From: Umezawaea endophytica
GTDB lineage: Bacteria > Actinomycetota > Actinomycetes > Mycobacteriales > Pseudonocardiaceae
Direction: 5' to 3'
Length of the DNA stretch: 38,605 nucleotides
NCBI RefSeq assembly: GCF_025061645.1
Contig: NZ_JANYMP010000053.1
Span: 1-38,605, forward strand
The translations under genes and the position numbers were made by a program. The notes beneath the pieces are model-generated. The model did no database searches and was not told the origin of the DNA. It saw only the letters and a list, made by a program, of their open reading frames with translations. Numbering within the stretch: position 1 is the stretch's first letter; every line of letters starts with the position of its first letter. Shown here piece by piece: positions 1,252 through 30,345 of this stretch.

Positions 1252-1562
1252 GGGTGCTCCTGTTCTGGATAGGACGTGCGAGCAGCCCTCTCGGGGCCCG
1301 TCGTGGGTTCCTCGATTCAGACAGTGCTGCAACCGGCGGGTTCGCGGCAGCGCAAGCCGACCCCTCTGCGCAGGGACCTTCGGCCCTGTTCGATCCACCA
1401 CGCCCTCGCTGGCCGCCCACCGGCCCCAAAGGCCTTGCCGGACAACGACGTTGTGCTCTGCTCCCGGTCGACCGCGAGGACCACGCTTGAGGCAGCGGGC
1501 GACGTTCCTGAGACGCCGTCGCGACGACCGCCCGACGAGCGGTCCGAGATCAAGGAGGATTC
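1252..1562. promoter_or_regulatory. divergent xfp/doxX intergenic region
   Basis: This 311-base gap between divergent genes has no ORF with family resemblance. It holds a CAGGG...CCCTG palindrome at 1371-1388 and a second loose copy, GGCCCCAAAGGCC, at 1422-1434, plus the ribosome binding sites of both genes (AAGGAGGA ends four bases before the doxX ATG). It probably carries both promoters, but no clear -10/-35 pair can be seen. Confidence 0.5.
1372..1388. promoter_or_regulatory. weak DosR-like box
   Basis: GGGACCTTCGGCCC at 1373-1386 differs from the window consensus GGGAC-NTTN-GTCCC at one position in the right arm. The outer CAGGG/CCCTG arms pair perfectly. Its place between xfp and doxX fits a shared operator, but the match is weaker than at 6222 or 17027. 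Confidence 0.35.
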
Positions 1563-2147
1563 ATGTCCACCAAGCAGATCCCCGGCCAGTCCCGCGGCAC
1601 CTCGCAGGACGCCCGGACGACCGTCCCGGCCGACCGGGCAGCCCGGCCGCTGGCGGTCCTGCGCATCGCGACCGGCCTGATCTTCCTGTGGGCCTTCGTG
1701 GACAAGGCGTTCGGCCTCGGCTACAGCACCGCCTCGGAACGCGCCTGGTTCAGCGGGGGATCCCCCACCAAGGGGTTCCTCGGCCACGTCGCCGTCGGCC
1801 CCCTGGAGTCGACCTTCCACGGCTGGGCGGGCGCCCCGTGGGCCGACTTCCTGTTCATGATCGGCCTGTTCGCCATCGGTGTCGCCCTGGTGCTGGGTGT
1901 CGGCCTGCGGATCGCCGCCGTCTCCACGGCGCTCATGATGCTGTTGATGTGGGTCGCGGAATGGCCCCTGGCCCAGCACACCTCGGCCGGTGAGCCCAGC
2001 GGCTCGACCAACCCGCTGATCGACTACCACGTGATCTACGCCATCGTGGCCGTCGTCCTCGCCTACGCGGCGGCGGGCGACACCTGGGGCCTGGGCCGGA
2101 GGTGGGCGAAGCTGCCCTTCGTCCAGGCCAACCAGTGGCTGCGGTGA
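1563..2147 (+). CDS. DoxX-like integral membrane protein
   Basis: This is a 194-residue protein with a polar N-terminus of about 28 residues and then four likely membrane segments: residues 30-46, about 95-115, 118-137 and 155-172. The pattern RPLAVLRIATGLIFLWAF at the first segment and the overall layout match DoxX/TQO-small-subunit-like proteins, some of which take part in thiol or sulfur redox at the membrane. The start has an excellent AAGGAGGA site. It is the first gene of a plus-strand run with the SHOCT and acyltransferase genes, and a strong hairpin follows its stop. A precise function is not known; the DosR-type context suggests a respiratory or redox role (inference). Confidence 0.8.
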   Translation: MSTKQIPGQSRGTSQDARTTVPADRAARPLAVLRIATGLIFLWAFVDKAFGLGYSTASERAWFSGGSPTKGFLGHVAVGPLESTFHGWAGAPWADFLFMIGLFAIGVALVLGVGLRIAAVSTALMMLLMWVAEWPLAQHTSAGEPSGSTNPLIDYHVIYAIVAVVLAYAAAGDTWGLGRRWAKLPFVQANQWLR

Positions 2148-2160
2148 CCCCACCGAGCCT

Positions 2161-2190
2161 CGGCCGGTGACCCGCGGGGGTCACCGGCCG
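2161..2190 (+). terminator. hairpin after doxX-like gene
   Basis: Two 13-base arms (2161-2173 and 2178-2190) pair perfectly around a four-base loop, 14 bases after the doxX stop. There is no T-run, as is usual in high-GC actinobacteria. It may end the transcript or reduce read-through into the SHOCT gene. Confidence 0.65.
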
Positions 2191-2227
2191 TTGAGGCGAA
2201 CAGGATGCCGGATGGAGGCGTTCGACG

Positions 2228-2470
2228 ATGATGTACTGGTACGGCAACGGCATGAACGGCTGGGGCTACGCGGTCATGACGATCGGGATGGTCCTGTTCT
2301 GGACGGTGGCGATCCTCGGCGGTGTCGCGCTGATCCGCCACCTGACCCGGCCCGCGGGCGCGGCAGGCGGTCCCTCCGCCGAGCAGCTCCTCGCCGAGCG
2401 GTTCGCCCGCGGCGAGATCGACGAGGAGGAGTACGGGAAGCGCTTGAAGACCCTGCGCTCCTCCGGGTGA
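2228..2470 (+). CDS. small SHOCT-domain membrane protein
   Basis: This 80-residue protein has one hydrophobic segment at about residues 16-37 and a C-terminal SHOCT motif at about residues 51-76, with AEQLLAERFARGEIDEEEY being the typical form. SHOCT is a short, mostly C-terminal motif of unknown role thought to mediate oligomerisation. The N-terminus is rich in Tyr, Trp, Gly and Met (MMYWYGNGMNGWGY), common in this small-protein family. A GGAGG about ten bases upstream supports the start; the second Met is an equally possible start. It lies between the doxX-like gene and the wax ester synthase gene. Function is unknown. Confidence 0.8.
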   Translation: MMYWYGNGMNGWGYAVMTIGMVLFWTVAILGGVALIRHLTRPAGAAGGPSAEQLLAERFARGEIDEEEYGKRLKTLRSSG

Positions 2471-2500
2471 GTCGACCACGACACGATCGTTGGAGGAGAC

Positions 2501-3868
2501 GTGGACAGGCTGAGTCCCCTGGACGCGGCGTTCCTGGAGGTCGAAGACGCCGATCCGCACGCTTCGCTGGCGATCGCGTCGATGGCGGTGCTGGAGGGGC
2601 CCGCACCGGCTCGCGACGAGTTCACCGCGGCGATCGGCGCGCGGTTCCGGACGATCCGCCGATCTCGGCAGAAGGTGCGCAGGGTGCCGCTGGACCTCGG
2701 TCTGCCGGTGTGGGTCGACGACCCGGACTTCGACCTCGACTACCACCTGCGCCGCACCGCACTCCCCCATCCCGGTGACGACCGGGCGCTGACCGACCTC
2801 GTCGCCAGGATCATGGCGCAGCGGCTGGACCGAGATCGACCGCTGTGGGAGTGCTGGGTGGTCGAAGGACTCGCGGACGGGCGCTGGGCCATGCTGACGA
2901 AGGTGCACCACTGCCTCGTGGACGGCGTCGCGGGAACCCGGCTCTACAGCGCGGTCTTCGACGACTCCACGTCGTGCGACGTCGACGACGTCGCGTTCGA
3001 GGCGGCGCCCGGCACGGTCCGGCTCCTCGCGGACGCGATCGGTGACCTGGTCCTCAACCCGGTCGAGCAGCTGCGGCTGCTGGGCCGTCTGCCCGGCCTG
3101 CTCGCCGGACGCCTCACCGACACGGTCCGCGGTCTCACGGCGCTGGCGGGAGCTGTGGTGCCCGCCCGCGCGTCATCGCTGTCCGGTCCGATCGGCGTAC
3201 CCCGGAGGTACCGCGTGGCACGCCTCGCGCTCACCGATGTGATCGAGGTGGGCAGGGCGTTCGGCGTCACCGTGAACGACGTGGTGCTCGCGGCGATCAG
3301 CGCCGGACTACGAGCGGTACTCCTGCACCGCGGTGAGACACCCGAGCCCGACAGCGTGCGGACCATGGTCCCGGTGTCGGTGCGCGCGGACGGCCACCGC
3401 GACTCGATCGACAACCGGGTGTCCGTGATACTGCCGTTCCTCCCGGTGGACTTGGCCGATCCGGTGGAGGTCCTGCGCGAAGTGCACCGGCGCATGACGG
3501 CCCTCAAGGCCGAGAAGGAGAGCGAGGCCGGAGCGGCCATGACATCGCTGGCGGAGCACGAGCCGCACGCGCCGCTGTCGTGGGGCATCCGGCTCGTGGG
3601 CAGGCTCCCGCAGCGCAACGTCGTCACCGTCACCACCAACGTGCCCGGCCCGACCGAGCCCGTGCGCGTGCTCGGGAGGCGGATCTTGGAGATCCTGCCC
3701 TACGTCCCGATCGCGCTCCGGCTGCGGACCGGTGTCGCCGTGCTGAGCTACGCGGGGACGCTGGCCGTCGGCGTCACGGCCGACTACGACAGCACGCCGG
3801 ACGTCGACCTAGTGGTGGACACCGTGCAACGCACCATCGGCGCTTTGACCGCCGAGGCCGCGGGGTGA
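2501..3868 (+). CDS. wax ester synthase / diacylglycerol acyltransferase (WS/DGAT)
   Basis: This 455-residue enzyme starts at a GTG preceded by GGAGGAGAC. WS/DGAT enzymes transfer acyl groups from acyl-CoA to diacylglycerol or fatty alcohols to make triacylglycerol or wax esters. The N-terminal signature [12 protein letters not shown] and the catalytic HHxxxDG motif (HHCLVDG, residues 136-142) are intact, as is the downstream [10 protein letters not shown] region. Length is usual for the family. In mycobacteria a member (Tgs1, Rv3130c) is a DosR-regulated enzyme of storage lipid synthesis, which fits this neighbourhood. It is last in the doxX-shoct-acyltransferase run and ends against the converging adh remnant. 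Which acceptor it prefers cannot be told. Confidence 0.93.
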
Positions 3869-4224: not shown

Positions 4225-5040
4225 TCAGCGTCCCACCCCGTCGACGGTCGCGCTGTGGTCCGGCACGAACCTCTGCAGGTGCCGAGCCGTGCGCAGGTAC
4301 CCGTTGGACGGAGGTCTGCGGGGGAGTTCCAGTTCCGGGGATCGGACGTCGTGGTAGTCCACGCTCGACAGCAGGTGTGCGATCACGTTGAGCCGGGCCC
4401 GGCGCTTGTCGTCGCCGTCGACCACGTACCACGGCGCCTCCGCGATGTCGGTGTGCACCAGCATGTCGTCCTTGGCGCGCGAGTAGTCCTCCCAGCGCGA
4501 CAGCGACTCCAGGTCGACCGGGGACAGCTTCCAGCGGCGCATCGGGTCGTCGAGCCTGCGGCGGAACCGGCGTTCCTGCTCGGCGTCGCTGACGGAGAAC
4601 CAGTACTTGCGCAGCAGGATGCCGTCCTCCACGAGCAGCCGCTCGAAGATCGGGCACTGGTGCAGGAACGTGCGGTGCTCCTCGGGGGTGCAGTAGCCCA
4701 TCACCCTCTCGACCCCGGCCCGGTTGTACCAGCTCCGATCCAGCAGGACGATCTCGCCCGCCGCGGGCAGGTGTTCGACGTAGCGCTGGAAGTACCACTG
4801 GGTGCGTTCCCGCTCCGTCGGCTTGGGCAGCGCGACGATCCGGGCGACGCGCGGGTTGAGGTGCTCGGTGATCCGCTTGATCGCGCTGCCCTTGCCCGCG
4901 GCGTCCCGCCCCTCGAAGACCACCACCAGCCGTGCGCCTTCGGCGCGGACCCACTCCTGCAACCTCACCAGCTCCGACTGCAACCGGTACAGCTCGCGCT
5001 CGTAGGTCTCCCGGCGCATCCGCTTGCCCTCCGGCGCCAT
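4225..5040 (-). CDS. ppk2: PPK2-family polyphosphate kinase
   Basis: This 271-residue single-domain PPK2 enzyme transfers phosphate between polyphosphate and nucleoside di- or monophosphates in the cytoplasm. The Walker A-like loop GRDAAGKG is at residues 44-51 and the DRSWYNRAGVE Walker B/lid region at residues 101-111; QWYFQRYVEHLP precedes it. The ATG at 5040 overlaps the TGA of the CBS-protein gene (TGATG), which implies translational coupling and makes this start preferable to the much longer open frame. Pairing with a CBS protein suggests an energy-state-sensing context (inference). Whether it makes NTP or polyphosphate cannot be read from sequence. Confidence 0.93.
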   Translation of the reverse strand: MAPEGKRMRRETYERELYRLQSELVRLQEWVRAEGARLVVVFEGRDAAGKGSAIKRITEHLNPRVARIVALPKPTERERTQWYFQRYVEHLPAAGEIVLLDRSWYNRAGVERVMGYCTPEEHRTFLHQCPIFERLLVEDGILLRKYWFSVSDAEQERRFRRRLDDPMRRWKLSPVDLESLSRWEDYSRAKDDMLVHTDIAEAPWYVVDGDDKRRARLNVIAHLLSSVDYHDVRSPELELPRRPPSNGYLRTARHLQRFVPDHSATVDGVGR

Positions 5041-5525: not shown

Positions 5526-6119
5526 CTAGGGGATGCGTCGCGTCCACCGCGGTTCGACCTCGGCCCATTCGGCGGCCCACCGACGGGCGTTGCCACGTCG
5601 GGCGAGGTGAACGGTGGTCAGGTACGCCGAGCACAGCACGCACACGAGGCCCAGCCACAGCGATCCCGCCAAGCCGATCGCGGTGATCACGGCTCCGTCG
5701 GGCGTGAGCGGAGGACTGGTGACCGCCCCGCTCCCGTCGATCCAGACCGGCACGGCGGCGCCTGCTGCGAGGTCGTGCGCCGCACTGACCTCACCCTCGT
5801 GCCGTGTCCCGTCGGGTGCCACCCAGGAGGCGCGGACCGCGAGCCCGGTCACCCCGTTCGCGGCGCCGGGCGCGCTGTCCTGCAGCAGAATCGCCTTGAC
5901 CTGGTGCCTGCCCGCCATCTGGTCCGCCGAGACGGCCGACTCGCGTGCGTGCACCTCGGACCCGATAGCCGCGGCGATGGGCACGCCGAGCAGGGCGAGC
6001 AGCACGGCGACCACGAACACCGTGCTCTCCACACGATCACTCGCCCGCGTGAGCGGGTTGCGTCCATGGAACACCCTCCGCACCAGGCGTGCGACCGGCG
6101 ACAGCGACTGGGTGCTCAT
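5526..6119 (-). CDS. Rv1733c-like membrane protein
   Basis: This 197-residue protein has two likely membrane segments, about residues 32-52 and 147-168, flanking an extracytoplasmic domain. The N-terminus RRVFHGRNPLTRASDRVE followed by a hydrophobic stretch and the closing LARRGNARRWAAEW region are characteristic of the Rv1733c family, members of which are DosR-regulated in M. tuberculosis. The ATG at 6119 has GGAGG about five bases upstream; the open frame extends further upstream, but that extension has no family resemblance and would cover the box at 6222. It is divergent from gap. Its biochemical role is unknown. Confidence 0.82.
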   Translation of the reverse strand: MSTQSLSPVARLVRRVFHGRNPLTRASDRVESTVFVVAVLLALLGVPIAAAIGSEVHARESAVSADQMAGRHQVKAILLQDSAPGAANGVTGLAVRASWVAPDGTRHEGEVSAAHDLAAGAAVPVWIDGSGAVTSPPLTPDGAVITAIGLAGSLWLGLVCVLCSAYLTTVHLARRGNARRWAAEWAEVEPRWTRRIP

Positions 6120-6221
6120 GGGCGTCCTCCCTCGGTTCGTCACCATCCAGCGTTCTCCCGTCGACGCGGCCGGTGAAGGGCCGTCGGTCGACCGGGTCCG
6201 CGCGCCGGGTCCCGTGGTGGC

Positions 6222-6237
6222 GGGGACTTTCGTCCCC
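6222..6237. promoter_or_regulatory. DosR-like box, strong
   Basis: GGGGACTTTCGTCCCC is a perfect palindrome with six-base arms and a TTTC centre. It is a near match to the core of the mycobacterial DosR box (GGGACTWWAGTCCC). It lies between the divergent Rv1733c-like gene (start 6119) and gap (start 6320), about 100 and 83 bases from the starts, so it could control both. Confidence 0.75.
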
Positions 6238-6319
6238 CGGCCCGACACCCTCCTTCTCTGGGACGCCGGACCCGATCGGCAGAACATCGACAGGACAGGA
6301 CATCCACGAGGAGGACGCC

Positions 6320-7330
6320 ATGGCGGTACGGGTCGGCATCAACGGGTTCGGTCGAATCGGCAGGGACGTCCTGCGCAGCGCGGTCGAGCGCCACGACACC
6401 GCGTTCGAGGTGGTCGCGGTCAACGACCTCACGGCTCCGGACACGTTGGGCCATCTGCTCGCGTTCGATTCGACCTACGGTCCGTGGTCTCACGCCGTAG
6501 CGGTCGAGGACGATTCGCTCGTGGTCGACCAGCGCCGCATCGCCGTGACGGCGCACGCCGATCCGTCCGAACTGGACTGGAGCGAGCACGGTGTCGACGT
6601 CGTGATCGAGGCCACCGGCAGGTTCCGCACCCGCGAGGCCGCGGCGGCGCACTTGGCGAGCGGCGCTCGGAAGGTGCTGATCACCGCCCCTGGCAAGGGG
6701 GTCGACGCGACCATCGTGATGGGTGTCAACGACGACGACTACGTGCCGCGGCTGCACCACGTCCTGTCCAACGCCTCCTGCACCACCAACTGCGTCGCCC
6801 CGATGGCCTGGGTGCTCAACGAGTGCTTCGGGGTCCAGGCGGGCGTCATGACGACGATCCACAGCTACACCAACGACCAGTCGCTGCTCGACGGTCCGCA
6901 CAAGGACCTGCGGCGGGCCAGGTCGGCGGCGGTCAACATGATCCCCACGTCAACCGGCGCGGCGCGCGCGGTCGGGCAGGTGATCCCCGCGCTCGACGGC
7001 AAACTCGACGGGCTCGCCGTTCGGGTGCCGGTGGAGGACGGCTCCATGACCGACCTCACCGTGCTGCTGGACACGCCCGCCACGGCCGAGCAGGTGAACC
7101 GGGCGTTCCAGGAGGCCGCGGACGGCAGGTTCAAGGGCTACCTGCGCTACACCAACGCCCCGATCGTCTCCAGGGACGTCATCGGCGATCCGTCCTCGTG
7201 CGTCTTCGACTCCAGCCTCGCCAAGGCCAACGGAAGGCTCGTCAAGGTCTTCGGCTGGTACGACAACGAGTGGGGTTACGCCAACCGCACCATCGACCTC
7301 GTCGACCTCGTTTCCCGCACCCTGCACTGA
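6320..7330 (+). CDS. gap: glyceraldehyde-3-phosphate dehydrogenase
   Basis: This 336-residue class I GAPDH oxidises glyceraldehyde-3-phosphate with phosphate and NAD(P)+ to 1,3-bisphosphoglycerate. The Rossmann start MAVRVGINGFGRIGR, the active-site SNASCTTNC with catalytic C154, and the C-terminal YDNEWGYANR are all present. The GAGGAGGACGCC site before 6320 fixes this start; the longer open frame runs through the DosR-like box. The cNMP-domain gene follows 30 bases later. A GAPDH placed here rather than in a pgk-tpi operon suggests a condition-specific paralogue (inference); cofactor preference is not certain, although the VND after the Rossmann fold resembles NAD-using forms. Confidence 0.95.
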   Translation: MAVRVGINGFGRIGRDVLRSAVERHDTAFEVVAVNDLTAPDTLGHLLAFDSTYGPWSHAVAVEDDSLVVDQRRIAVTAHADPSELDWSEHGVDVVIEATGRFRTREAAAAHLASGARKVLITAPGKGVDATIVMGVNDDDYVPRLHHVLSNASCTTNCVAPMAWVLNECFGVQAGVMTTIHSYTNDQSLLDGPHKDLRRARSAAVNMIPTSTGAARAVGQVIPALDGKLDGLAVRVPVEDGSMTDLTVLLDTPATAEQVNRAFQEAADGRFKGYLRYTNAPIVSRDVIGDPSSCVFDSSLAKANGRLVKVFGWYDNEWGYANRTIDLVDLVSRTLH

Positions 7331-7895: not shown

Positions 7896-10472
7896 TCAGC
7901 CGCGACGTCCTCCCTTCCGCCGGGTCAGTGCACGCTCCCGCCACTTGTCCAGTTCCACCAGGACGTAGGCGACAGCGCTCGCCACCACGATCAACCCCCA
8001 GTCCCGCCAGTCGATCGGGCTCGTGTGGAACAGTCCGTTCATCGCGGGCAGGTAGGTGAACAGCAGTTGCAGCCCCGCCGTCACGGCGATTCCACCGAGC
8101 AGCCAAGGGCTCCGGGTGATCGGCACCCCAGGGCGCAGGTCCTCCAGCGACCGGCAATTGAGCAGGTAGGCGATCTGAGCGGCCACGAACACGTTGACCG
8201 CCACCGTCCGCGCCTCCTCCACCGGCGCACCGGAGGTGAGCCACCAGTGGAACGCCCCGAACGACAGTCCCAGGAGGACGGTCGACACGAACAGGACGCG
8301 CCGCACGAGCCTCCCGGTGAGCAGCGGCAGTGTGGGCGGCAGCGGTGGCCTGCGCATCACATCGGGCTCGCGCGGTTCGAACGCCAGCGTCAAGCCCAGC
8401 GCAACGGCGGTGGTCATGTTGATCCACAGGATCTGCACCGGCAGGACCGGCAGCGCGGTGCCGAGCACGACCGCGGTGAGGATCACCAGGCCTTCGGCCA
8501 TGTTCGTCGGCAGCGTCCAGATGATGAACTTGCGCAGGTTGTCGAAGACCGCGCGCCCTTCTTCGACTGCGGCTCGGATCGAGGAGAAGTTGTCGTCGGC
8601 CAGCACCATGTCCGCGGCCTGCTTCGCGACCTCCGTGCCGCCCCGACCCATGGCGACGCCGATGTCCGCGCGGCGCAGCGCGGGCGCGTCGTTGACCCCG
8701 TCGCCCGTCATCGCGACGACATGGCCCTGCCGCTGGAACTCCTTGACCAGGCGCAGCTTCTCCTCCGGCGTCACCCTGGCGTAGACGCCGTCCTCGGGGA
8801 TGTCGAAGGTCCGAGCGATGGCCCGAGCCGTGACCGGGTGGTCACCGGTGATCATCCGGACGTCGATGCCCGCCGTGCGGCACTCCCGGACGGCCTCGAT
8901 CGCCTCCGGTCGCGGCGGGTCGTGCATCGCTTGCAGGCCGAGGAGTTCCACGTGGCCGCGCAGGTTCTCCTCCGTCAACTCGGAGCCCGCGGACAACCGG
9001 GCCGAGCCGATGGCCAGGACCCGCAGCCCTGCCGCGGCCAGGTCGTCGGTTGAGGTCGGCTCTTCGGGGTTCCCGGTCAGGTCGAGGATCCGCTCGACCG
9101 CGCCTTTGAGGTACACGACGCCGCCGGCGTGCGACGTGGCCATGTACTGGCGTTCGGAGGTGAATGGCAGGACGTCGAGCCTGTGGGGCACGTCCCGCAG
9201 GTCCAGTCCAGCCTTGCGCGCGGCCACGACCAGCGCGGCCTCGGTGGGGTCGCCGACCGCCGTCCAGGCGCCGTGCTCCTCGACGATCCGCGCGTCGTTG
9301 CACGCCAGGCCCGCCAGCAGGCACTCGCGCAGCTCAGGGGTCACGGGCGTCGAGAAGTCGCCGTCCGGGTCGTAACCGACACCTGTCACGTCCACGGAGT
9401 GGCCGGAGACCACGACGGTGCGGACGGTCATCGCGTTCGCGGTGAGCGTGCCGGTCTTGTCCGTGCAGATGGTCGTGGTGCTGCCCAGCGTCTCCACGGC
9501 GGGCAGGCGTCGGATGATCGCGTTGCGGCGGGCCATCCGGGCGACGCCGATGGCGAGCGTCACGGTGACCGCGGCGGGCAGGCCCTCCGGGATCGCGCCG
9601 ACGGCGAGGGCGACCGCGGCGGTGACCATCACGCCGAGCGGTTCCCCGCGCACCAGGCCGATCACCACGCTGACGGCCGCCAGCCCGAGGATGACGACCG
9701 TCAGCAGCTTGGCGAAGCGGTCCAGCTTGCGGGTCAACGGGGTGCGCACGGTGGACGTGCTGCCCACGAGCCGGTGGACGCGGCCGATCTCGGTGTCCGC
9801 ACCGGTCGCCACGACGACACCGCGCCCGCTGCCCGCGGTGACCAGGGTGCTGGAGTAGGCCATGTTCGTGCGGTCGGCCAGTGCGGTGTCGTGGGGCAGC
9901 GGGAGCGGGTCCTTCGCCACGGCGGCGGACTCACCGGTCAGCGCCGACTCGTCGACCGCGAGTTCCCCGGTGCGCACCAGCCTGAGGTCGGCGGGCACCT
10001 GGTCGCCGGGTTCGAGCGTGACCAGGTCGCCGGGAACGAGGTCGTCGGAGGAGATCCGCGTCGCCTGCCCGTCACGGATGACGGTGGCCTCGGTGTGGAC
10101 CATGGCGATCAGCGCGTCCAGCGCACGTTCGGCTCGAAGTTCCTGCACGAACCCGATCAGGGCGTTGACGACCACGACGGCGAACACGACCGAGGCGTCC
10201 ACCGCCTCCCCGAGCACGGCGGTCAGCACGGCGGCGCCGAGCAGCACGTAGATCAACGGGTTGTTGACCTGGTCGATCAGTTGGAACACCCAGCCTCGGC
10301 CTCGTGGCGGGGGCAGGGTGTTGGGTCCCAGGTCCGCCAGTCTCCGCTGGGCTTCGGCCGCTGTCAGGCCGGTGTCCGCGTCGGTTTCGGCGAGCAGGAC
10401 CACCTCGTGCACCGGCATCCCGTGGTGCACAGCGGTCTCGACGAGTTCAGCGGTGGTGAGGGGCACGGTCAC
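7896..10472 (-). CDS. CtpF-like P2-type cation-transporting ATPase
   Basis: This 858-residue P-type ATPase has the expected parts: a cation-ATPase N-terminal region (residues about 15-85), actuator TGES at 179-182, the IPEGLP membrane motif of P2 calcium-type pumps, phosphorylation site DKTGT with D338, the hinge GDGVNDAPA, and a C-terminal group of membrane helices. It pumps cations out of the cytoplasm; Ca2+ is the usual guess, as for mycobacterial CtpF (Rv1997), a DosR-regulated member. The GTG at 10472 overlaps the upstream TGA. A second GTG at 10466 has better spacing from AGGA and may be the true start. It is last in the usp/acyl-CoA ligase operon. Ion specificity is uncertain. Confidence 0.93.
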   Translation of the reverse strand: MTVPLTTAELVETAVHHGMPVHEVVLLAETDADTGLTAAEAQRRLADLGPNTLPPPRGRGWVFQLIDQVNNPLIYVLLGAAVLTAVLGEAVDASVVFAVVVVNALIGFVQELRAERALDALIAMVHTEATVIRDGQATRISSDDLVPGDLVTLEPGDQVPADLRLVRTGELAVDESALTGESAAVAKDPLPLPHDTALADRTNMAYSSTLVTAGSGRGVVVATGADTEIGRVHRLVGSTSTVRTPLTRKLDRFAKLLTVVILGLAAVSVVIGLVRGEPLGVMVTAAVALAVGAIPEGLPAAVTVTLAIGVARMARRNAIIRRLPAVETLGSTTTICTDKTGTLTANAMTVRTVVVSGHSVDVTGVGYDPDGDFSTPVTPELRECLLAGLACNDARIVEEHGAWTAVGDPTEAALVVAARKAGLDLRDVPHRLDVLPFTSERQYMATSHAGGVVYLKGAVERILDLTGNPEEPTSTDDLAAAGLRVLAIGSARLSAGSELTEENLRGHVELLGLQAMHDPPRPEAIEAVRECRTAGIDVRMITGDHPVTARAIARTFDIPEDGVYARVTPEEKLRLVKEFQRQGHVVAMTGDGVNDAPALRRADIGVAMGRGGTEVAKQAADMVLADDNFSSIRAAVEEGRAVFDNLRKFIIWTLPTNMAEGLVILTAVVLGTALPVLPVQILWINMTTAVALGLTLAFEPREPDVMRRPPLPPTLPLLTGRLVRRVLFVSTVLLGLSFGAFHWWLTSGAPVEEARTVAVNVFVAAQIAYLLNCRSLEDLRPGVPITRSPWLLGGIAVTAGLQLLFTYLPAMNGLFHTSPIDWRDWGLIVVASAVAYVLVELDKWRERALTRRKGGRRG

Positions 10473-13105
10473 TCCTGGCCTTTCGCGCGCAGGCCGCGCA
10501 GGTACGGGTCCACCGGCGACGCGGGTTCGATCCGCACGCGGGCGTCCACGACCTGGCAGCGCTCATCGGTCGCGATCACCGGGTTGAGGTCGAGTTCGGC
10601 GATCTCGGGAACGAGTTCGGCCAGCTTCGCCACCCGCAGCAGCACGTCGCGCACCGGCGCCTCCGCCACGTCGAGGAACACTTCTTCGGCGGCCCGGAAC
10701 CCGTGCAGGAGGTCGTCGGCGTCAGCGGCGGACAGCGGCGCGAGCGCGGCGGCGCGGTCGTCGACGAGGTCGGTGTCGATGCCGCCGAGCCCGGTGACCA
10801 CCAGCGGCCCGAACTCCTGGTCGTTGACCACACCCACCAGTAGTTCCCGACCGCGGCCCGCCATCGGCTGGACGAACGCGCCGCGCAGCCGGTCGCCGAA
10901 CAGCGCCCGGAACCGGCTGAACGCGTCCGCGGCGGCTTCCGGGGTTTCCAGGTCGAGTACAACGCCGCCGCCCTTGCTCTTGTGCAGCAGGTCGACCGCG
11001 ATCGCCTTCAGCACGACGGGACAGCCGAATCCGCGCTGCGCGGAGGCAGTGGCCTCGGCGGTGGTCGTCACGACCCCGCCGAGCACGGGCAGTCCGAAGG
11101 CGCTCAGCAGTTCGACCACCTGGTCCGGGGCGAGCCATCCGTCGCCGTGATCGTCCTCCAGGTGCCGCGCGACAACCGCACGTGCTCTGTCCAGGTCGAT
11201 CCCGTCGAGTTCGTCCCCACCAGCGGGACGCGCCAACCAGCCCGCTCGCTCGGCGAGCCTCGCGAGCACGGCGGCGGCCTGGGCCGGATCGGTGTAGCTG
11301 GGCACCGGCCCGGACTCCACGGCCGCCACCTGCCCGGCGTCGACCGCGAGGACAGGCTTGCCTTCCACCGGGTGAACACCGCTCGCCGGGTCGCCCAGCG
11401 CGGTGGGAACCGTGACCACGATGACCGCGTCCACGCCCGGATCGGCCGCGACCGCGTCGAGGCAGCGGGCAAAGGTCCGCTCGTCCACGACCGCGGTGGT
11501 GTCGACGGGGTTGCGCGTGCTGGCCGTGGCGGGCAGCAGCGCACGCAGGGCCGCGATCGTGGCGCTCGACAGTTCGGCGACCTCGAGGCCGTTGTGCACG
11601 CAAGCATCGGCCGCCAGCACGCCGAGCCCGCCCGCGTTGCTGAGCACGGCGACGGATCGACCGTCGGGCAGCGGCTGGCCGTGCAGTGCCGCGAGCACGT
11701 CCACCAGTTCGGCGACGCCGTCGACGGCGGTGATGCCCGCTTGCCGGAACAGGGCGTCGCGGGTGATCGCCGGGGTGGCGGTCGCGGCCGTGTGCGACGC
11801 GGCGGCACGCTGCCCCGCCTCGGAACTGGCCGACCGGATCGCGAGCACCGGCTTGCGGCGGGCGACCCGCCGGGCCAGTCGGGCGAACTTGCGCGGGTTG
11901 CCGAAGGACTCCAGGTACAGCACGACGGCACGGGTGTGCTCGTCGCGTTCCCACCACAGCAGCAGGTCGTTGCCGCTGACGTCGTACTTGTCGCCCGTGG
12001 ACACGAGGTTGGAGGTGCCGAGGCCGATCCGGCGCAGCCGTTCGACCACGGCGATGGCGATGCCGCCGGACTGGGTCACCACTCCGACGTCACCGGTGTT
12101 GGTGCGGGTGCGGGCGAAGGTGGCGTTCATGCTCACGCCGGGTTCGCCGCTGGAGACGCCGAGGCAATTCGGGCCGACGACGCGCATACCGTGCTCGCAG
12201 ACGGCGGTCATCAGTCCCCGTGCCAGCTCCGGGTGCTCGGTGACCCCGGCGGTGATGACGACCAGTGCCTTGACACCACGTCGTCCGCACTGCTCGGCGG
12301 CGGCGGGCACCTTGTCCGCGGGTACGCACAGCACCGCCAGTTCGGGTACGTCCGGCACCTCGGCGATCGACGCGTAGCAGGCGACGCCCGCGACCGAGGT
12401 CGCGTGCGGGTTGACCGCGTAGAGATCACCGGCGAAATCGCCGGCGACGAGGTTGCGCAGCAAGGCGTTCCCGACGCCGGTTTCCTTGCGGCTCGCGCCG
12501 ATCACGACGATCGACGTCGGCTTCAGCACCGCGCGCAGGCTCTGGACTTCGGCGGTGAGCTCGCGGTCGGCGACCGCGTCGAGGTAGGTATCCACCGGTT
12601 CGAGCCCGAGGTCGACGTGCACGACGTCGCTGTCGGCGGTGACCGTCCACACCAGACCCATGTTGGTGAAGACGTGCAGCATGCGGGAGTTGATGGTCAT
12701 GACGTCGGCGACGAAGCGGCGTAGGCCGCGGCGGACCGCGAGCGAGCAGAGGCGTTCGAGCAGCAGTGTGCCGACCCCGTGCGCCTGCTCGGCGTGCGAG
12801 ACGACCAGCGCCACCTCCGCCTGCGTCGGCACGTCCAGGACGATGTAGCTCGCCGCGCCGAGCAGCCTGCCGTCGCGAAAAGCCCCCACCGTCACATGGT
12901 TCGGGTCGTCCGGTGTGGCCATCCGGCTGACGAAGTCCTCCAACTGCCGGGGTGAGGTCGTGAAGAACCTGAGGTAGCGGTCCTCCAGCGGCAACGACTC
13001 GTGCAGCACCAGCAGCGCGCCGACGTCGCCCGCTCCCAGTTCCCGCACCGCCACCACCGTGCCGTCGGTCAGCAGAGCGCGGTCCGGTTCCAGGTTCACG
13101 GCCAT
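10469..13105 (-). CDS. GNAT acetyltransferase / ADP-forming acyl-CoA synthetase fusion
   Basis: This 878-residue protein begins with a GNAT domain (residues about 15-165, with the acetyl-CoA loop region EQAHGVGTLLLERL), followed by a CoA-binding Rossmann domain (from about residue 190, SIVVIGASRKETGVGNALLRN), succinyl-CoA-ligase-like domains to about residue 480 and beyond, and an ATP-grasp domain (about 655-870). The ligase half interconverts acyl-CoA, ADP and phosphate with acid, CoA and ATP. The catalytic-type His in SHTAA (H438) and an ATP-grasp His (H708, LLHKSKGGG) are present, so activity seems possible. That differs from E. coli Pat, whose ligase half is considered inactive. The GNAT half may acetylate protein lysines. 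It is co-transcribed with usp and the ATPase gene. Confidence 0.92.
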   Translation of the reverse strand: MAVNLEPDRALLTDGTVVAVRELGAGDVGALLVLHESLPLEDRYLRFFTTSPRQLEDFVSRMATPDDPNHVTVGAFRDGRLLGAASYIVLDVPTQAEVALVVSHAEQAHGVGTLLLERLCSLAVRRGLRRFVADVMTINSRMLHVFTNMGLVWTVTADSDVVHVDLGLEPVDTYLDAVADRELTAEVQSLRAVLKPTSIVVIGASRKETGVGNALLRNLVAGDFAGDLYAVNPHATSVAGVACYASIAEVPDVPELAVLCVPADKVPAAAEQCGRRGVKALVVITAGVTEHPELARGLMTAVCEHGMRVVGPNCLGVSSGEPGVSMNATFARTRTNTGDVGVVTQSGGIAIAVVERLRRIGLGTSNLVSTGDKYDVSGNDLLLWWERDEHTRAVVLYLESFGNPRKFARLARRVARRKPVLAIRSASSEAGQRAAASHTAATATPAITRDALFRQAGITAVDGVAELVDVLAALHGQPLPDGRSVAVLSNAGGLGVLAADACVHNGLEVAELSSATIAALRALLPATASTRNPVDTTAVVDERTFARCLDAVAADPGVDAVIVVTVPTALGDPASGVHPVEGKPVLAVDAGQVAAVESGPVPSYTDPAQAAAVLARLAERAGWLARPAGGDELDGIDLDRARAVVARHLEDDHGDGWLAPDQVVELLSAFGLPVLGGVVTTTAEATASAQRGFGCPVVLKAIAVDLLHKSKGGGVVLDLETPEAAADAFSRFRALFGDRLRGAFVQPMAGRGRELLVGVVNDQEFGPLVVTGLGGIDTDLVDDRAAALAPLSAADADDLLHGFRAAEEVFLDVAEAPVRDVLLRVAKLAELVPEIAELDLNPVIATDERCQVVDARVRIEPASPVDPYLRGLRAKGQE

Positions 13106-13648: not shown

Positions 13649-13728
13649 GATCCGCTCCTCCTGTGCTGGTGGCATCGAGCTTCTCCGTTCGGCGTGGCGC
13701 CGGTCAGTGGCGGCAGTCCCGCGCGGCC

Positions 13729-13742
13729 GGGACTTTCGACCC
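13729..13742. promoter_or_regulatory. DosR-like box (1 of 2, usp/usp)
   Basis: GGGACTTTCGACCC differs from the 6222 palindrome at a single base (T to A in the right arm). It lies 81 bases upstream of the leftward usp and about 100 upstream of the rightward usp. Confidence 0.65.
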
Positions 13743-16451: not shown

Positions 16452-16535
16452 ACGACGCGGGGACCGGAATGCCCTCGCCGCCGCCCGGTCCCGACGACGA
16501 CCCTGCTGGAGAGGTCGAGGTGGAGGAGGGCTCCG

Positions 16536-19467: not shown

Positions 19468-19481
19468 AGGACGTTGGTCCC
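19468..19481. promoter_or_regulatory. DosR-like box
   Basis: AGGACGTTGGTCCC has one mismatch to GGGAC-N4-GTCCC and lies 59 bases upstream of the small membrane protein start. Confidence 0.65.
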
Positions 19482-24697: not shown

Positions 24698-24711
24698 GGG
24701 ACTTCCGTGCC
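24698..24711. promoter_or_regulatory. DosR-like box upstream of ppsA
   Basis: GGGACTTCCGTGCC has one mismatch to GGGAC-N4-GTCCC and is 83 bases upstream of the ppsA ATG. It overlaps a CACGG-N5-CCGTG palindrome (24695-24709), and a second GGGAC half-site starts at 24691. Confidence 0.55.
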
Positions 24712-24794: not shown

Positions 24795-27059
24795 ATGACC
24801 ACCCACGTCGTCGGATTCGACACCCTCGGCAAGCACGACACCGCGATCGCGGGCGGCAAGGGGGCGAACCTCGGCGAACTCACCGGCGCCGGCCTGCCCG
24901 TGCCACCCGGTTTCGTGATCACCGCCGACGCCTACCTCGCCTCGATGGAGCGCGGTGGGACCCGCGACGAACTGCGGTCCGCGCTCGACACCGCCCTGCT
25001 GTCGGTCGACAGCCCGAACGAGCTGACCGCGGCGTGCGAACTGCTCCAGGATCTCGTGCGCAAGGCCGGAGTCCCGGACGACGTCCGCACGGCCGTCCTC
25101 GACGCCTACCGCGCTCTCGGACCGGGCGCCTCCGTCGCGGTGCGGTCGTCGGCGACCTCGGAGGACGGCGCCGGGACGTCGTTCGCGGGCATGAACGCCA
25201 CCTACACCAACGTGACCGGCGACGCCGACCTGGTCGAGCGCGTGCGGGACTGCTGGGCGTCGCTGTTCGGCCCGCGCGTCATCGCCTACCGGGCGAGCAG
25301 GCAGATCATCGAGGAGCCCGCCATCGCCGTGGTCGTGCAGCGGATGGTCGACTCCGAGCGGTCCGGTGTGGCGTTCACCGCCGACCCGTCCACCGGCAAC
25401 CGGGACCGCGTCGTCGTCGAAGGCGCGTTCGGCCTCGGTGAGGTCGTGGTCAGCGGCGCCGTGGAACCCGACACCTACGTGCTGGCCAAGACCGGACCGC
25501 GGCTGTTGGAAGCCCGTGTCGGGCACCAGACCCACAAGATCGTCCGCGGCCCGGACGGCGCCGACCTGCGCGTCGACCTCGACGAGCACACCGGGGCCGA
25601 ACGGGTGCTGACCGACGACGAGGCCATCGACCTGGCCCGGCTCGCGTTGCGGGTCGAGGAGCACTACGGCACGCCCCAGGACCTGGAGTGGGCTATCGCG
25701 GAGGGCTGGACGTGGCTCGTGCAGTCCCGGCCCATCACCACCCTCGACGAAGGTGAGGCGCCAGGAACGGTGTTGCTGAACGGGCTTTCCGCGTCGCCCG
25801 GTATGGCGAGCGGCCGGGTCCGCCTGCTGGCCTCGCCATCGGAGGGCCACCGGTTCGTCGACGGCGAGATCCTGGTGGCGACCATGACCAACCCGGACTG
25901 GGTTCCCACGATGCGCCGCGCGGCCGCCCTGGTGACCGACGGTGGCGGCATGACCTGCCACGCCGCGATCGTGGCCAGGGAACTGCGCGTGCCGTGTGTC
26001 GTCGGCACCCGCAAGGCCACCCAGGTCCTGCGCGACGGTGAGGTCGTGACCGTGGACGGCGCGGGTGGGCGGGTGCTCGAAGGCGCGGTCGGCGGCCCGG
26101 TCCACACCCAGCCCCGACCGGAGGCCCCGACTACAGCGGGTGCGGTCGAGACGCTGGCCACCCGCCTCTACGTGAACCTCGCGATGCCCGAGCACGCCGA
26201 GGAGGTCGCGGCCCTGCCGGTCGACGGCGTCGGCCTGCTGCGGGCGGAGTTCATGCTCACCGAGGCGCTGAAGGGCACCCACCCCCGGTACCTGCTCGCC
26301 CACGAGACCGGCGACGAGTTCGCCACGGCCATGACCGAGGCACTGTTGCGGATCACTCGGGCGTTCTACCCGCGGCCCGTGGTGTACCGCGCCATCGACT
26401 TCCGCACCAACGAGTTCCACGACCTCGTGGGCGGCGCGGACTTCGAGCCGCACGAGGACAACCCGATGATCGGCTACCGGGGCTGCTACCGGTACGTCAA
26501 GGAGCCGATGCTGTTCGGCCGCGAACTCGACGTGCTGTCGAGGGTTCGGGAGCAGACGCCGAACCTACACCTGATGATCCCGTTCGTGCGCACGAAGTGG
26601 GAACTGGAGGCGTGCCTGGAGCAGATCGACGCGAGTCCTCTCGGCCGCCAGCGCGGCCTGCACCGGTGGGTCATGGCCGAGGTCCCCTCGGTCGCCTACT
26701 GGATCCCCGAGTACGCCAAGGCGGGCATCGACGGAGTGTCCATCGGCAGCAACGACCTCACGCAGCTCGTGCTGGGGGTCGACCGCGACTCCGAGGTGTG
26801 CGCCGAACTGTTCGACGAGTCCGACCCGGCGGTGCTCGACTTCATCACCCGGATCATCCGGGCCGCGAACGACACCGGCATCACGTCGTCGCTGTGCGGG
26901 CAGGCGCCGTCCAACCGGCCGGAGTTCGCCGAACACCTGGTGCGCCAAGGGATCACCTCGATCTCGGTGAACGCCGACGCCGTGCACGCCGCCAGGTCGG
27001 TGATCGGCTCGGCGGAACGCAGGCTGCTGCTCGGCGCGGCCGTCCAGGCGGGGAGGTGA
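24795..27059 (+). CDS. ppsA: phosphoenolpyruvate synthase (pyruvate, water dikinase)
   Basis: This 754-residue enzyme converts pyruvate, ATP and water to PEP, AMP and phosphate, or may run in reverse when ATP is low. The ATP-grasp domain (residues 1 to about 320) opens with [10 protein letters not shown] and contains SSATSEDG. The swivelling domain bears the phosphohistidine H389 in [14 protein letters not shown]. The C-terminal PEP/pyruvate barrel (about 440-745) contains [15 protein letters not shown] and [12 protein letters not shown] with the reactive Cys. Length is close to the usual 790. AAGGAGATGCC precedes the ATG. It lies downstream of a DosR-like box and forms an operon with the nitroreductase gene. 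Confidence 0.95.
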
Positions 27060-27064: not shown

Positions 27065-28081
27065 ATGCGGGACGACCGCCCCGACACCGACACCGTCCGA
27101 GCCGTGGTCGAACTGGCCGGACTGGCCCCGTCGGTCCACAACTCGCAGCCGTGGCGGTGGCGCGCGGGCGACGACTCGGTGCGGCTGTTCGCGGACCCCG
27201 ACCGGCACCTGCCCGCCACCGATCCCGAAGGACGCGACCTGCTGATCAGCTGCGGCGCGGCGCTGCACCACCTGCGGGTCGGTTTCGCCGCGCTCGGCTG
27301 GGCAACGGTGGTCCGCCGCCTGCCCAACGCCGCCGATCCGGACCACCTGGCGACGGTGACGTTCTACCCCCGACAAGCGAGCGGCGAGGACATCGCGCTC
27401 TCGGCGGCCATCCCGCACCGGCGAACCGACCGCAGGCGGTTCAGCTCGTGGACGGTACCCGCCGAACTGGTGCGGGTGCTGGTCGAACGCGCCGCCGAAC
27501 ACGGCGCGATCCTCGTGCCCGCCGACGACCAGGGCGACCGCCTCCGGATCACCTCGGCCATCAACGCCGCGTCCTGGCAACAGGGCATGGACCCCTCCTA
27601 CGCCACCGAACTGGCGGCGTGGTCGGGGCGCGGGCGAAGCGCGCAGGAGGGCGTGCCCGCCGCGAACATCCCCTCCTCACCGGTCTCGCACGGCGACACC
27701 GACATGCGGCCGTTCCCCAACGGCGAGCTGCGGGTGTCACCACCGGGGTGGGAGGAGGACGCCGGTGAACTGCTACTGCTGGCGACCTCCTCCGACGACC
27801 GCGGGTCCCGGCTCCGCGCCGGGGAGGCGGTGAGCGCGGTGCTGTTGACGGCGACCGATCTCCGGCTCGCCACGTGCCCCCTCAGCCAGCCGCTGGAGAT
27901 CACCGCCACCAGGGAACTCCTGCGCGAGCAGGTGCTCGACGACGTGGCGTTCCCGCAGTTGGTCATCCGGGTCGGCTGGGCCCCGGTGAGCGGTGAGCCG
28001 CTACCCGCCACACCTCGCCGCGATGTCGCCGACGTGCTCGACATCCGTTCACCCTGGCATCCGCGAGGAGGTCACTCCTGA
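27065..28081 (+). CDS. Acg-type nitroreductase-fold protein
   Basis: This 338-residue protein has two nitroreductase-like halves: the N-terminal AGLAPSVHNSQPWRWR typical of FMN-binding members, and a second half with DRGSRLRAGEAVSAVLLTAT and ending VIRVGWAP. This is the layout of mycobacterial Acg (Rv2032) and Rv3131, both DosR-regulated. Acg is reported to hold FMN buried, and may not act as a classical reductase. The ATG at 27065 has GGGAGG at a good distance; a GTG at 27056 overlapping the ppsA stop is an alternative. It ends 150 bases before a terminator hairpin. Confidence 0.9.
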   Translation: MRDDRPDTDTVRAVVELAGLAPSVHNSQPWRWRAGDDSVRLFADPDRHLPATDPEGRDLLISCGAALHHLRVGFAALGWATVVRRLPNAADPDHLATVTFYPRQASGEDIALSAAIPHRRTDRRRFSSWTVPAELVRVLVERAAEHGAILVPADDQGDRLRITSAINAASWQQGMDPSYATELAAWSGRGRSAQEGVPAANIPSSPVSHGDTDMRPFPNGELRVSPPGWEEDAGELLLLATSSDDRGSRLRAGEAVSAVLLTATDLRLATCPLSQPLEITATRELLREQVLDDVAFPQLVIRVGWAPVSGEPLPATPRRDVADVLDIRSPWHPRGGHS

Positions 28082-28493: not shown

Positions 28494-29888
28494 TCAGTCC
28501 TCCGAGGACTGCTCGGAATCCACGGCCTCGGGTGACGTGGTGCGGCGGCGCTCGAACGCGTGCATCGCGGCGATGAGCAGCATCGTCCCTCCGAGCGACA
28601 CGAGCAGCACACCGCCGAGCAGCGCCCCCGTCGAGACAGGTCCCAGGGCGGGCACCGTCGCCCGCGCCGACAGCTCCGTGTCCACGACCTTCCCGTTGTC
28701 CGCGTTGCGCGCGACCACGGCCCAGGTCCCCTGTTCGGCCCGCCACGTCAGCGATCCCGTCCCGGACGCCGCCCAGGCGGGCTGGGCGACGGGAAGAGGG
28801 CCTCCCGCCTGGTGCCGGTAGTCCACCTCGGCTCCGGCAGGCCACACCTCGTCGTGCTCGACGCCTTCGAGGTAGCGGGCCACGTCGTCAGCGGGGCCGA
28901 TGCCGACGACCACGTCGTCGTCCGCGCGGAGCCGGACCTCGCCGAGCCAGTCCTCCGCGATCCGCCACCGGGCCTCGGTCCAACGCAGGTCGATCGCCCC
29001 GAACGACAGCGCGTAACCGCTGCTGTGGAACGACTTCGTCCCGGCCACGAGGTACCCGTCCGCGTCGCGCTGGGTCGAGTGCGCCCACAGCCCGATGGCT
29101 CCTGCCGCCGAGACGAGCGACCCGGTGCCGAGCAGCAGGGCGCCGATCACGACGGCCGCGACCCGGCCGCCGGTCCACCCGCTCGACGGGGGTGGTGGCG
29201 GCTCCTGGTCGATCGTCGTCACACCGGGTTCATCGCCCCCGGTGTCCAGTCGGAACGGCGGGTAGGCGTCGGTCATCAAGCCGGCATAGGCGGCGACGCG
29301 CAGCGCCCACCTGTCCATGCCCAGCAGGAAGTCGAAGAGCCCGCGCGGGTAGCGGCCGGTGACCAGCAGCGCCACCCCGGCGAACAGCGCGACCAGACCG
29401 ACCAGACCGCCGCCCGCGCTGTAGGCCCACTGCCCCGCCTGCGAGGCGGCGTACCCGCCCCCGCCGAGGAAGATCCCGACAACCAGGTAGTGCGGGATCG
29501 CCAACAGCCACCACTTCACCAGCACCAGCCCGCGCGACAGGTGTTCGGGGTAGGCGATATCCAGCGCCGCCGGGTAGTTCGGTTCGGGACCGAGGCTGAA
29601 CGGCGGGTACTGGTCGGTGCCCAGCGCCCCGTAGGTGTAGTAGGCGACGCGCCACGTCCAGCGCAGCACGCCGAGGGTGAAGTCGAACAGGGGTCGCGGA
29701 TAGCGGCCGGCGAACAGGATGCCGAAGAAGGCGAGCACCGTGCACGCCGCGAAGCCCGCCCACAAGAACGCGAGCACGACGTAGTGCGGTATCGCCAGCA
29801 ACCACTTCACCAGCCAGAGCCACCTGCTCAGTCCAGGGTCGAGTCGTCCGCGCACCCTCACCGGGTAGCGGGCAGCCGCCGTGGTCAT
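28494..29888 (-). CDS. DUF4389-domain membrane protein
   Basis: This 464-residue protein has a duplicated N-terminal unit: WLVKWLLAIPHYVVL...RPLFDFTLGVLRW...YPPFSL (residues about 22-98) and VKWWLLAIPHYLVV...RGLFDFLLGMDRW...YPPFRL (about 124-211), both DUF4389. Two membrane segments occur in each. A further membrane helix at about 237-258 precedes an extracytoplasmic domain and a last helix at about 420-440, with an acidic C-terminus. GGAGGAGACGTGAC precedes the ATG. It lies downstream of the hpf gene on the same strand. Function is unknown. Confidence 0.85.
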   Translation of the reverse strand: MTTAAARYPVRVRGRLDPGLSRWLWLVKWLLAIPHYVVLAFLWAGFAACTVLAFFGILFAGRYPRPLFDFTLGVLRWTWRVAYYTYGALGTDQYPPFSLGPEPNYPAALDIAYPEHLSRGLVLVKWWLLAIPHYLVVGIFLGGGGYAASQAGQWAYSAGGGLVGLVALFAGVALLVTGRYPRGLFDFLLGMDRWALRVAAYAGLMTDAYPPFRLDTGGDEPGVTTIDQEPPPPPSSGWTGGRVAAVVIGALLLGTGSLVSAAGAIGLWAHSTQRDADGYLVAGTKSFHSSGYALSFGAIDLRWTEARWRIAEDWLGEVRLRADDDVVVGIGPADDVARYLEGVEHDEVWPAGAEVDYRHQAGGPLPVAQPAWAASGTGSLTWRAEQGTWAVVARNADNGKVVDTELSARATVPALGPVSTGALLGGVLLVSLGGTMLLIAAMHAFERRRTTSPEAVDSEQSSED

Positions 29889-29912
29889 GTCACGTCTCCT
29901 CCGCGTGGACGT

Positions 29913-29925
29913 GGACTGTTCGTCC
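29913..29925. promoter_or_regulatory. possible DosR-like box, DUF4389 gene
   Basis: GGACTGTTCGTCC has GGAC/GTCC ends with a five-base spacer, like the copy at 16439. It lies 24 bases upstream of the DUF4389 start, between it and hpf, which is close for an activator site. Weak. Confidence 0.3.
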
Positions 29926-29936
29926 GGAGTGGATGG

Positions 29937-30251
29937 TCAGTCGTGCGATTTGAGCAGCAGGTCGCGCATCCGGTCGTGCAACTGGTCGATCGCCTCGGTG
30001 TAGGTGCTCGCCGTCACCTCGGCGTTCAGACCGGCGCCGTTCACGGTCAACCGGGCGTGCGCGACGACGAGCGGCCGGGCCCGGCGACCGGCCGTCGTCG
30101 TCAGCCTCACGGCCGCGAGGTCGACCGAACCGGGTGCGTACCTCGCGAGCGGGGCGATCTTCGCCACCGCGTAGTCGCGCGCGTTGCCGGGCACCTTCGA
30201 GGTGAGCGAAACCTGGACGTTCTCGATGACGTTCTGCCCTGCGTGGCGCAT
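29937..30251 (-). CDS. short HPF/RaiA-like ribosome-associated protein
   Basis: This 104-residue protein fits the S30AE/HPF fold: an amphipathic opening (NVIENVQVSLTSKVPGNARD), then YAVAKIAPLARYAPGSVDLA, alternating strands, and a final helix YTEAIDQLHDRMRDLLLKS. It lacks the C-terminal domain of long HPF. HPF/RaiA proteins bind the 30S subunit and stabilise idle ribosomes; the mycobacterial DosR-regulated Rv0079 and Rv1738 have related folds. GAGGAG before the ATG at 30251 supports this start over the longer open frame. A DosR-like box lies about 80 bases upstream. The call rests on pattern, with moderate certainty. Confidence 0.7.
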   Translation of the reverse strand: MRHAGQNVIENVQVSLTSKVPGNARDYAVAKIAPLARYAPGSVDLAAVRLTTTAGRRARPLVVAHARLTVNGAGLNAEVTASTYTEAIDQLHDRMRDLLLKSHD

Positions 30252-30331
30252 GTCTTCTCCTCTTCGGTCGTGCGGTTCCACGCTCGTTCACAGTGGGCGA
30301 CGGGGAGAGAGGCGAAGCGGCTGACGTCCAC

Positions 30332-30345
30332 GGGACCTCGGACCC
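30332..30345. promoter_or_regulatory. DosR-like box upstream of hpf
   Basis: GGGACCTCGGACCC has a perfect left arm and one right-arm change (GACCC for GTCCC), and lies about 80 bases upstream of the hpf-like start on the reverse strand. Confidence 0.5.

Follow-up and report, generated by a model that had tools for sequence, protein, structure and literature searches.

We have analyzed a repeated palindrome, GGGAC-N4-GTCCC (the box), in a 38,605-nucleotide stretch of Umezawaea endophytica DNA (the window), which is the entire contig C53 (38.6 kb) of an 11.02-Mb genome in 65 contigs. The boxes are very probably binding sites of a response regulator of the DosR/DevR/OsdR type that governs a hypoxia regulon, a prediction made from sequence. 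Judged by its regulator, kinase, box, paired-box geometry, and target families, the window system is a member of this kind. The DosR box of Mycobacterium tuberculosis is GGGAC-N4-GTCCC, as in the window. An earlier interpretation, the sequence-only reading, had proposed a single regulon in an island without dosR/dosS. The shared DosR-type regulon is well supported, on the grounds of box placement, paired geometry, boxes at orthologous promoters, and regulator homologues, while the island without dosR/dosS is not supported.

The nine box-like sites of that reading, and its 13-base variant at 16439, are all present in the sequence, the site given as 6222 starting at 6223. Relative to GGGAC-N4-GTCCC, the boxes at 6223 and 17027 are exact, those at 1373, 13729, 13770, 19468, 24698, and 30332 have one mismatch, and the one at 15848 has two. 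Their described location upstream of genes or between divergent pairs is confirmed, with the nearest gene start 39 to about 120 bp away. Gene limits and starts in the window are curated, and intergenic DNA makes up 9.5% of it.

The box GGGACCTTCGGCCC (1373..1386) lies in the intergenic region between the phosphoketolase gene xfp (- strand) and a DoxX-like gene (+), in a tandem (1359-1386) whose second half-box points toward xfp. The exact box GGGACTTTCGTCCC (6223..6236) separates an Rv1733c-family gene (-) from the gene of glyceraldehyde-3-phosphate dehydrogenase (GAPDH, +), its tandem (6209-6236) extending toward the minus-strand gene, and a one-mismatch box that was absent from the earlier list, GGGACGCCGGACCC (6260..6273), is found 47 bp before the GAPDH gene. 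Two boxes, GGGACTTTCGACCC (13729..13742, tandem 13716-13742 toward UspA) and GGGACGTTGGCCCC (13770..13783, tandem 13756-13783), share the region between two divergent universal stress protein (usp) genes. The two-mismatch box CGGTCGTTGGTCCC (15848..15861) is located 61 bp before the probable CBS-Usp operon, with a further two-mismatch copy nearby at 15889, and the variant palindrome, GGACC-N3-GGTCC within the 14-base stretch 16439..16452, again lies between divergent usp genes. The exact box GGGACTTTGGTCCC (17027..17040, tandem 17014-17040) precedes ORF17132 (ORF, open reading frame) and ABC transporter genes by 92 bp; it has CTCTG at +20 on the gene side and the tandem half-box on the opposite side. 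The remaining boxes are AGGACGTTGGTCCC (19468..19481), 60 bp before a small ORF (19541-19741), GGGACTTCCGTGCC (24698..24711), 84 bp before the phosphoenolpyruvate (PEP) synthase gene, and GGGACCTCGGACCC (30332..30345), between a gene for a hibernation-promoting-factor-like (HPF-like) protein (-, 51 bp) and a SulP gene (+, 156 bp). In total, the window has 12 matches with at most one mismatch, nine intergenic and three coding (1614, 3359, 27069), and the earlier statement that the box occurs in no coding sequence was therefore too strong.

Enrichment and promoter geometry

Because a motif must not be chosen after it has been seen, all palindromes in the intergenic DNA of the window were scored, that is, 1024 five-base half-sites with 11 spacers (0-10), giving 11,264 combinations. 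GGGAC-N4-GTCCC is at the top of these, with nine occurrences against 0.78 expected. One-mismatch copies number 12 in the 38.6-kb window vs 18 in a background of 13 stretches of 20 kb from elsewhere in the genome (260 kb in total), and by automatic gene calls seven of the 12 are intergenic vs three of the 18. The exact box occurs at 28 places in the genome, compared to 10 for the reversed pattern; two of these are in the window and three near the starts of contigs C1, C10, and C36. The suggestion that the motifs might be at background frequency genome-wide is thus not borne out, as they are enriched in the window, in its intergenic DNA, and in a tandem pattern.

When the sites in the window and its relatives are read in the direction of the gene, three features emerge: a second half-box at +8-9, CACTG at +20, and ACCGTGG at about +47. 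Since these were first seen in the window and its relatives, 58 named non-mycobacterial dosR loci (out of 80 kept, the other 22 being mycobacterial) constitute an independent test. Among 258 oriented flanks of these loci, the second half-box at +8/9 is present in 47 (13.9 expected, Poisson P 2.7e-12), CACTG at +20 in 25 (4.2 expected, P 3.9e-12), and ACCGTGG at +46-48 in 42 (17.0 expected, P 2.5e-7), values that overstate the significance because related species have promoters in common. The window itself shows the second half-box five times vs 1.4 expected and CACTG five times vs 0.4, and the background set shows 1 vs 1.5 and 1 vs 0.4, respectively, with ACCGTGG at 4 vs 1.7. With the A of ACCGTGG placed at -11, the second box would be centered at -42.5. 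In the DevR promoters of M. tuberculosis, the boxes are closely packed, the proximal one overlapping the -35 element, and DevR binds cooperatively to a weaker second site (PMC3029386).

Matches to the tandem pattern GGGNC-N4-GTCCC-N8/9-GGGNC number 11 in the 11.02 Mb, against three for the reversed control. Five of them are in C53, one each is near the starts of C1, C10, and C36, and three are elsewhere (C4, C5, C7); on C53, C1, C10, and C36, the second half-box is on the gene-start side in six of the eight. A genome-wide count of CWCTG at +18-21 gave three matches vs two in the control, too few to be of use. The tandem match on C4 (535601-535627) lies near the gene of a GerE regulator that is 37% identical to the C36 regulator described below.

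Regulators, kinases, and relatives

The genome was searched for HisKA_3 (best 150 of 163 candidates), GAF_2, and GerE (best 150 of 243) domains. Among the scored candidates, two GAF-GAF-HisKA_3 kinases adjoin a response regulator (C36:6779-9153 and C10:4619-7026). In each copy the dosS and dosR genes lie tail to tail, 2 bp separating their ends. The concern that the genome might have no DosR-like response regulator is thereby removed. The best solved match of the C36 and C10 regulators is M. tuberculosis DevR (3c3w, E 7.5e-85 and 1.2e-84, respectively), followed at a distance by VraR (E 4e-41 and 1.5e-40). Asp54, K179, K182, and N183, as counted on the 3c3w alignments, are identical in both regulators; in DevR, Asp54 is the phospho-acceptor and the other three residues contact DNA (PMC3029386, PMC5999986). 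The two regulators are 92% identical to each other and the two kinases 84%. The best solved match of the kinases is the GAF domain 2vzw (E 1.1e-58 and 5.4e-57), which is listed as a probable histidine kinase and which we take to be DosT. Next come the GAF domains of DevS (e.g., 2y8h, E 4.8e-53 and 1.3e-51), and the ATPase domains match DosT 3zxq and DevS 3zxo. What is presumably the proximal heme histidine (His149 of DevS) falls within a conserved HPPM stretch of the kinases, and heme binding is a prediction.

Thirty relative genomes were searched, and stretches from seven (G002, G009, G014, G018, G021, G022, G030) were compared. In four of the seven (G002 and G018, with two islands each, G009, and G021), the homologues of DosR and DosS are immediate neighbors amid the gene families of the window, and in G022 they are about 15 kb apart; G014 shows only a 39%-identical regulator, and the single stretch of G030 shows neither homologue. 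Exact or one-mismatch boxes precede the homologues of xfp (G009, G022), GAPDH (G022), and dosR (G009). In addition, an exact box lies between the G009 homologues of the divergent usp pair at 13729, and one-mismatch boxes are found before the CBS homologue of G018 and, at a distance of 61 bp, before the HPF homologue of G002. Within the genome itself, an exact box precedes the xfp copy of C1 (C1:1371), in the same place as the box at 1373. In G002, a single contig carries paralogous dormancy islands at 880-960 kb and 9.40-9.48 Mb, each with dosS-dosR and about 8.5 Mb apart.

In the 58 non-mycobacterial loci, a box with one mismatch or none is present upstream of 23 of the 58 dosR genes, 25 of 75 usp hits, 14 of 38 Acg-type hits, and three of six xfp hits, compared to two of 49 dosS genes and eight of 253 background genes. 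The upstream region was 330 bp, exactly so for the background genes and somewhat longer for late-starting alignments. dosS and dosR are convergent in 46 of these loci (within 1 kb in 41) and on the same strand in three, and nine have no kinase hit; in 12 of the 22 mycobacterial loci the kinase is just downstream of dosR on the same strand.

Several observations weigh against the assignment to a DosR-type regulator. In the 400 bp upstream of the C36 and C10 dosR genes, no one-mismatch box is intergenic; the single box of this quality there, before the C36 gene, falls in the adjoining usp coding stretch. The genome encodes at least two more DosR-like regulators, on C22 (119001-124000) and C12 (86001-92000), each with an adjoining kinase homologue and 62% and 56% identical, respectively, to the C36 regulator; because they keep the same K-T-x-K-N contacts, the acting regulator is not unique. 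Of the 28 exact boxes, 23 lie outside C53 and the starts of C1, C10, and C36, and twin exact palindromes (C1:853205/853238) occur at two divergent genes for which no connection to dormancy was apparent. In the window, the -10-like ACCGTGG shows no excess (3 vs 2.1 expected), and in two of the eight tandem matches (C53:17014 and C36:5552) the second half-box is on the side without a gene start. When two mismatches are allowed, the window contains 44 matches vs a shuffle mean of 68, i.e., no excess. Finally, a matrix built from 25 published OsdR sites of Streptomyces coelicolor (GGGCC-type) yields only a weak excess, with four sites scoring at least 10 in the window against about 1.3 expected from the nine in the 260-kb background; the sites at 1372 and 6222 score 16.9 and 11.7, on a matrix that is Streptomyces-trained.

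Some of these points would be explained if the boxes were operators of another regulator, either a NarL/LuxR-type protein like those of C12 and C22 or a TetR-type repressor, the likeness to DosR being incidental. The shared contact residues of C22 and C12, the twin palindromes outside the islands, and the lack of a clear box at the genome's own dosR genes all agree with this explanation. It does not account, however, for a paired-box geometry as in DevR promoters, for the clustering of tandem boxes on dosRS-linked contigs, or for the frequency of boxes upstream of dosR in other genera relative to the background, and we consider it improbable. The twin palindromes of C1 may be operators of a different regulator; these sites and the one at C21:136309 were inspected and are not counted as targets.

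The contig break in xfp and the weaker alternatives

The absence of dosR and dosS from the window is probably an assembly effect, because C53 ends inside xfp and both contigs that carry the C-terminal half of an xfp gene also carry dosRS. C53 starts inside the gene, which reads leftward out of the contig. The genome has exactly two XFP_N domains (C53:124-1191 and C1:124-1194) and exactly two XFP_C domains (C36:2-565 and C10:2-565), with nine of nine candidates scored in each case, and all four halves are at contig starts. The N-terminal halves are 92% identical as DNA, and the N-terminal and C-terminal pairs are 92-94% identical as proteins. The middle XFP domain was not found anywhere in the assembly; in relatives (e.g., G002, G014, G030) the two halves share a strand and are separated by about 0.6 kb.

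The simplest reading of these sequences is an assembly interrupted by a pair of nearly identical xfp genes, and C53 would therefore continue into C36 or C10. Within 10 kb of its end, each of these contigs has a DevR/DosR-like regulator together with a DosT/DevS-like kinase, and the notion of an island biologically devoid of dosR/dosS is for this reason not upheld. Most likely, a dosS-dosR pair is situated some 5-10 kb past the left end of the window, behind xfp and ackA. The relatives gave no decision between C36 and C10 as the neighbor of C53.

The alternative is that dosRS are truly not linked to the island, which would then be regulated only in trans by remote loci. In its favor, the 38.6-kb contig contains no dosR or dosS, and the join of C53 with C36 or C10 is deduced across a piece of xfp that is missing from the assembly. 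The exact count of two N-terminal and two C-terminal halves, their position at contig starts, their pairwise identity, and the presence of dosRS on both C-half contigs make such an arrangement rather unlikely. The most surprising part of the sequence-only reading, a regulator-less island, is thus probably an assembly break, while what remains is real, has good support, and belongs to a known kind. A regulator that is absent from an assembled contig is not necessarily absent from the locus.

Chance or compositional palindromes in G+C-rich DNA would be in line with the low two-mismatch count and with the 18 one-mismatch copies in the background, but this explanation is largely refuted, and very unlikely, since none of 250 Markov simulations of the intergenic DNA reaches the top score of GGGAC-N4-GTCCC, a second box occurs at a fixed distance, and boxes recur at homologous promoters. 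Transcription terminators or RNA hairpins at gene ends, which the start of the boxes at 17027, 19468, and 24698 only 9-42 bp past the upstream gene end might suggest, are equally hard to credit and were dropped, as none of the five terminator-like sites from two scans overlaps a listed box and those at 1373, 6223, 13729/13770, and 30332 lie between divergent genes.

Proposed mechanism, known systems, and gene content

With the boxes taken as DosR-type sites, the following mechanism can be envisaged. Low oxygen, NO, or a similar stress would act on the DosT/DevS-type GAF-domain kinase, which would in turn phosphorylate the DosR-type regulator. The latter would bind the strong palindrome and, cooperatively, the weaker second box, which is 8-9 bp away and adjacent to RNA polymerase. 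It would activate a survival set made up of transport genes and of the genes for phosphoketolase, GAPDH, PEP synthase, and the Usp, Rv1733c-type, Acg-type, and HPF-like proteins. For signal sensing, phosphorylation, and gene activation, the models are the systems of M. tuberculosis and S. coelicolor (PMC3029386, PMC5069765). The binding itself, oxygen as the signal, activation rather than repression, and the contig that joins the window are likewise inferred. To judge from the boxes in front of xfp, GAPDH, and PEP synthase, the regulon may include central carbon metabolism.

The system resembles DevR/DosR of M. tuberculosis in its regulator, which is homologous over nearly its whole length with the phosphorylation and DNA-contact residues kept (PMC3029386, PMC5999986), as well as in its DosT/DevS-type GAF kinases and in the paired boxes packed against the promoter (PMC3029386). 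The two systems differ in the organization of the regulatory genes, U. endophytica having two dosS-dosR pairs that are tail to tail and not on the same strand, and by the presence in U. endophytica of boxes in front of xfp, GAPDH, PEP synthase, and ABC genes. They have in common the Usp, Acg/Rv3131, Rv1733c, and wax ester synthase/diacylglycerol acyltransferase (WS/DGAT) families. Usp, Acg/Rv3131, Rv1733c, CBS, and HPF proteins are typical DosR targets in mycobacteria, and all of these families are present in the window.

A binding precedent outside the mycobacteria is provided by OsdR of S. coelicolor (PMC5069765). As described there, the core regulon of OsdR/OsdK (SCO0167-SCO0219) is clustered around the regulator genes in a non-mycobacterial actinomycete and includes Usp, nitroreductase, pyruvate phosphate dikinase, and Crp-like genes, and predicted sites such as CGGGACCTTCGGCCCT are similar to the present box (PMC5069765). 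On the other hand, the OsdR consensus is AGGGCCGATCGGCCCT, with a GGGCC half-site instead of the GGGAC of the window, osdR-osdK forms an operon, and the S. coelicolor region holds nitrate reductase genes (PMC5069765), none of which was seen in the window.

The two dosRS pairs, the tail-to-tail dosS/dosR arrangement, and the boxed xfp genes may be new in detail. In the open-licence literature, nothing was found on DosR with Pseudonocardiaceae and hypoxia; the matches listed for phosphoketolase with DosR/DevR lack the word phosphoketolase, and among those listed for convergent DosR/DosS none seemed relevant by title. We tentatively propose a widespread non-mycobacterial form of DosR with dosS and dosR tail to tail, which in this lineage is duplicated and might command a phosphoketolase-acetate kinase route, possibly yielding ATP without oxygen. 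As the two genes do not form one operon, kinase and regulator levels would therefore be set by separate promoters. The duplicated dosRS together with the boxed phosphoketolase genes suggest substrate-level ATP formation when oxygen runs out. More generally, a dormancy switch of the mycobacterial type, two-box promoters included, is extended to other large actinomycetes, and the boxes provide a list of target promoters open to testing.

The gene families of the window were assigned with Pfam and NCBIfam. At its left end, the N-terminal part of xfp (1..1251, -; XFP_N, E 2e-162) is cut by the contig end. It is followed by the DoxX-like membrane protein (1563..2147, +), whose 23.0 bits are slightly below the Pfam cut-off of 23.6, and by family matches to WS/DGAT (2501..3868, +) and polyphosphate kinase 2 (4225..5040, -). 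The Rv1733c-family protein (5526..6146, -) matches NF050032 with 151 bits (cut-off 80), and type I GAPDH (6320..7330, +) is assigned by family match. Further on are a P-type cation ATPase (7896..10472, -), for which the top NCBIfam models are calcium types under their own cut-offs, a GNAT acetyltransferase fused to acyl-CoA ligase domains (10469..13105, -), and UspA (13139..13690, -), the latter two again by family match; the UspA, CoA-ligase, and ATPase genes are close together on the same strand, UspA first, and possibly form an operon.

Five Usp genes are found in the window. Besides UspA, family matches identify universal stress proteins B (13860..14270, +), C (15899..16396, -), and D (16536..16985, +), and a tandem-Usp protein (14334-15212, -), which probably shares an operon (14334..15787) with the CBS-pair protein (15209-15787, -). 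ORF17132 (17132-17758, +) has no match in the Pfam scan, and the ABC ATPase (17755-18657, +) and ABC-2 permease (18647-19450, +) that follow it are assigned by family, as are PEP synthase (pyruvate, water dikinase; 24795..27059, +) and the SulP-family transporter with a STAS domain (30501..32312, +). The Acg/Rv3131-family FMN oxidoreductase (27066..28081, +), adjoining the 3' end of the PEP synthase gene, matches NF047509 with 346 bits (cut-off 199), and the S30AE/HPF-like protein (29937..30281, -) scores 24.4 bits (cut-off 23.7). Other families present are SHOCT-domain, CBS, cyclic-nucleotide-binding, lycopene-cyclase-like, DUF4342, and DUF4389 proteins. At the right contig end, a gene judged by eye from its translation to be low-molecular-weight phosphatase/arsenate-reductase-like (38299-38604) is cut.

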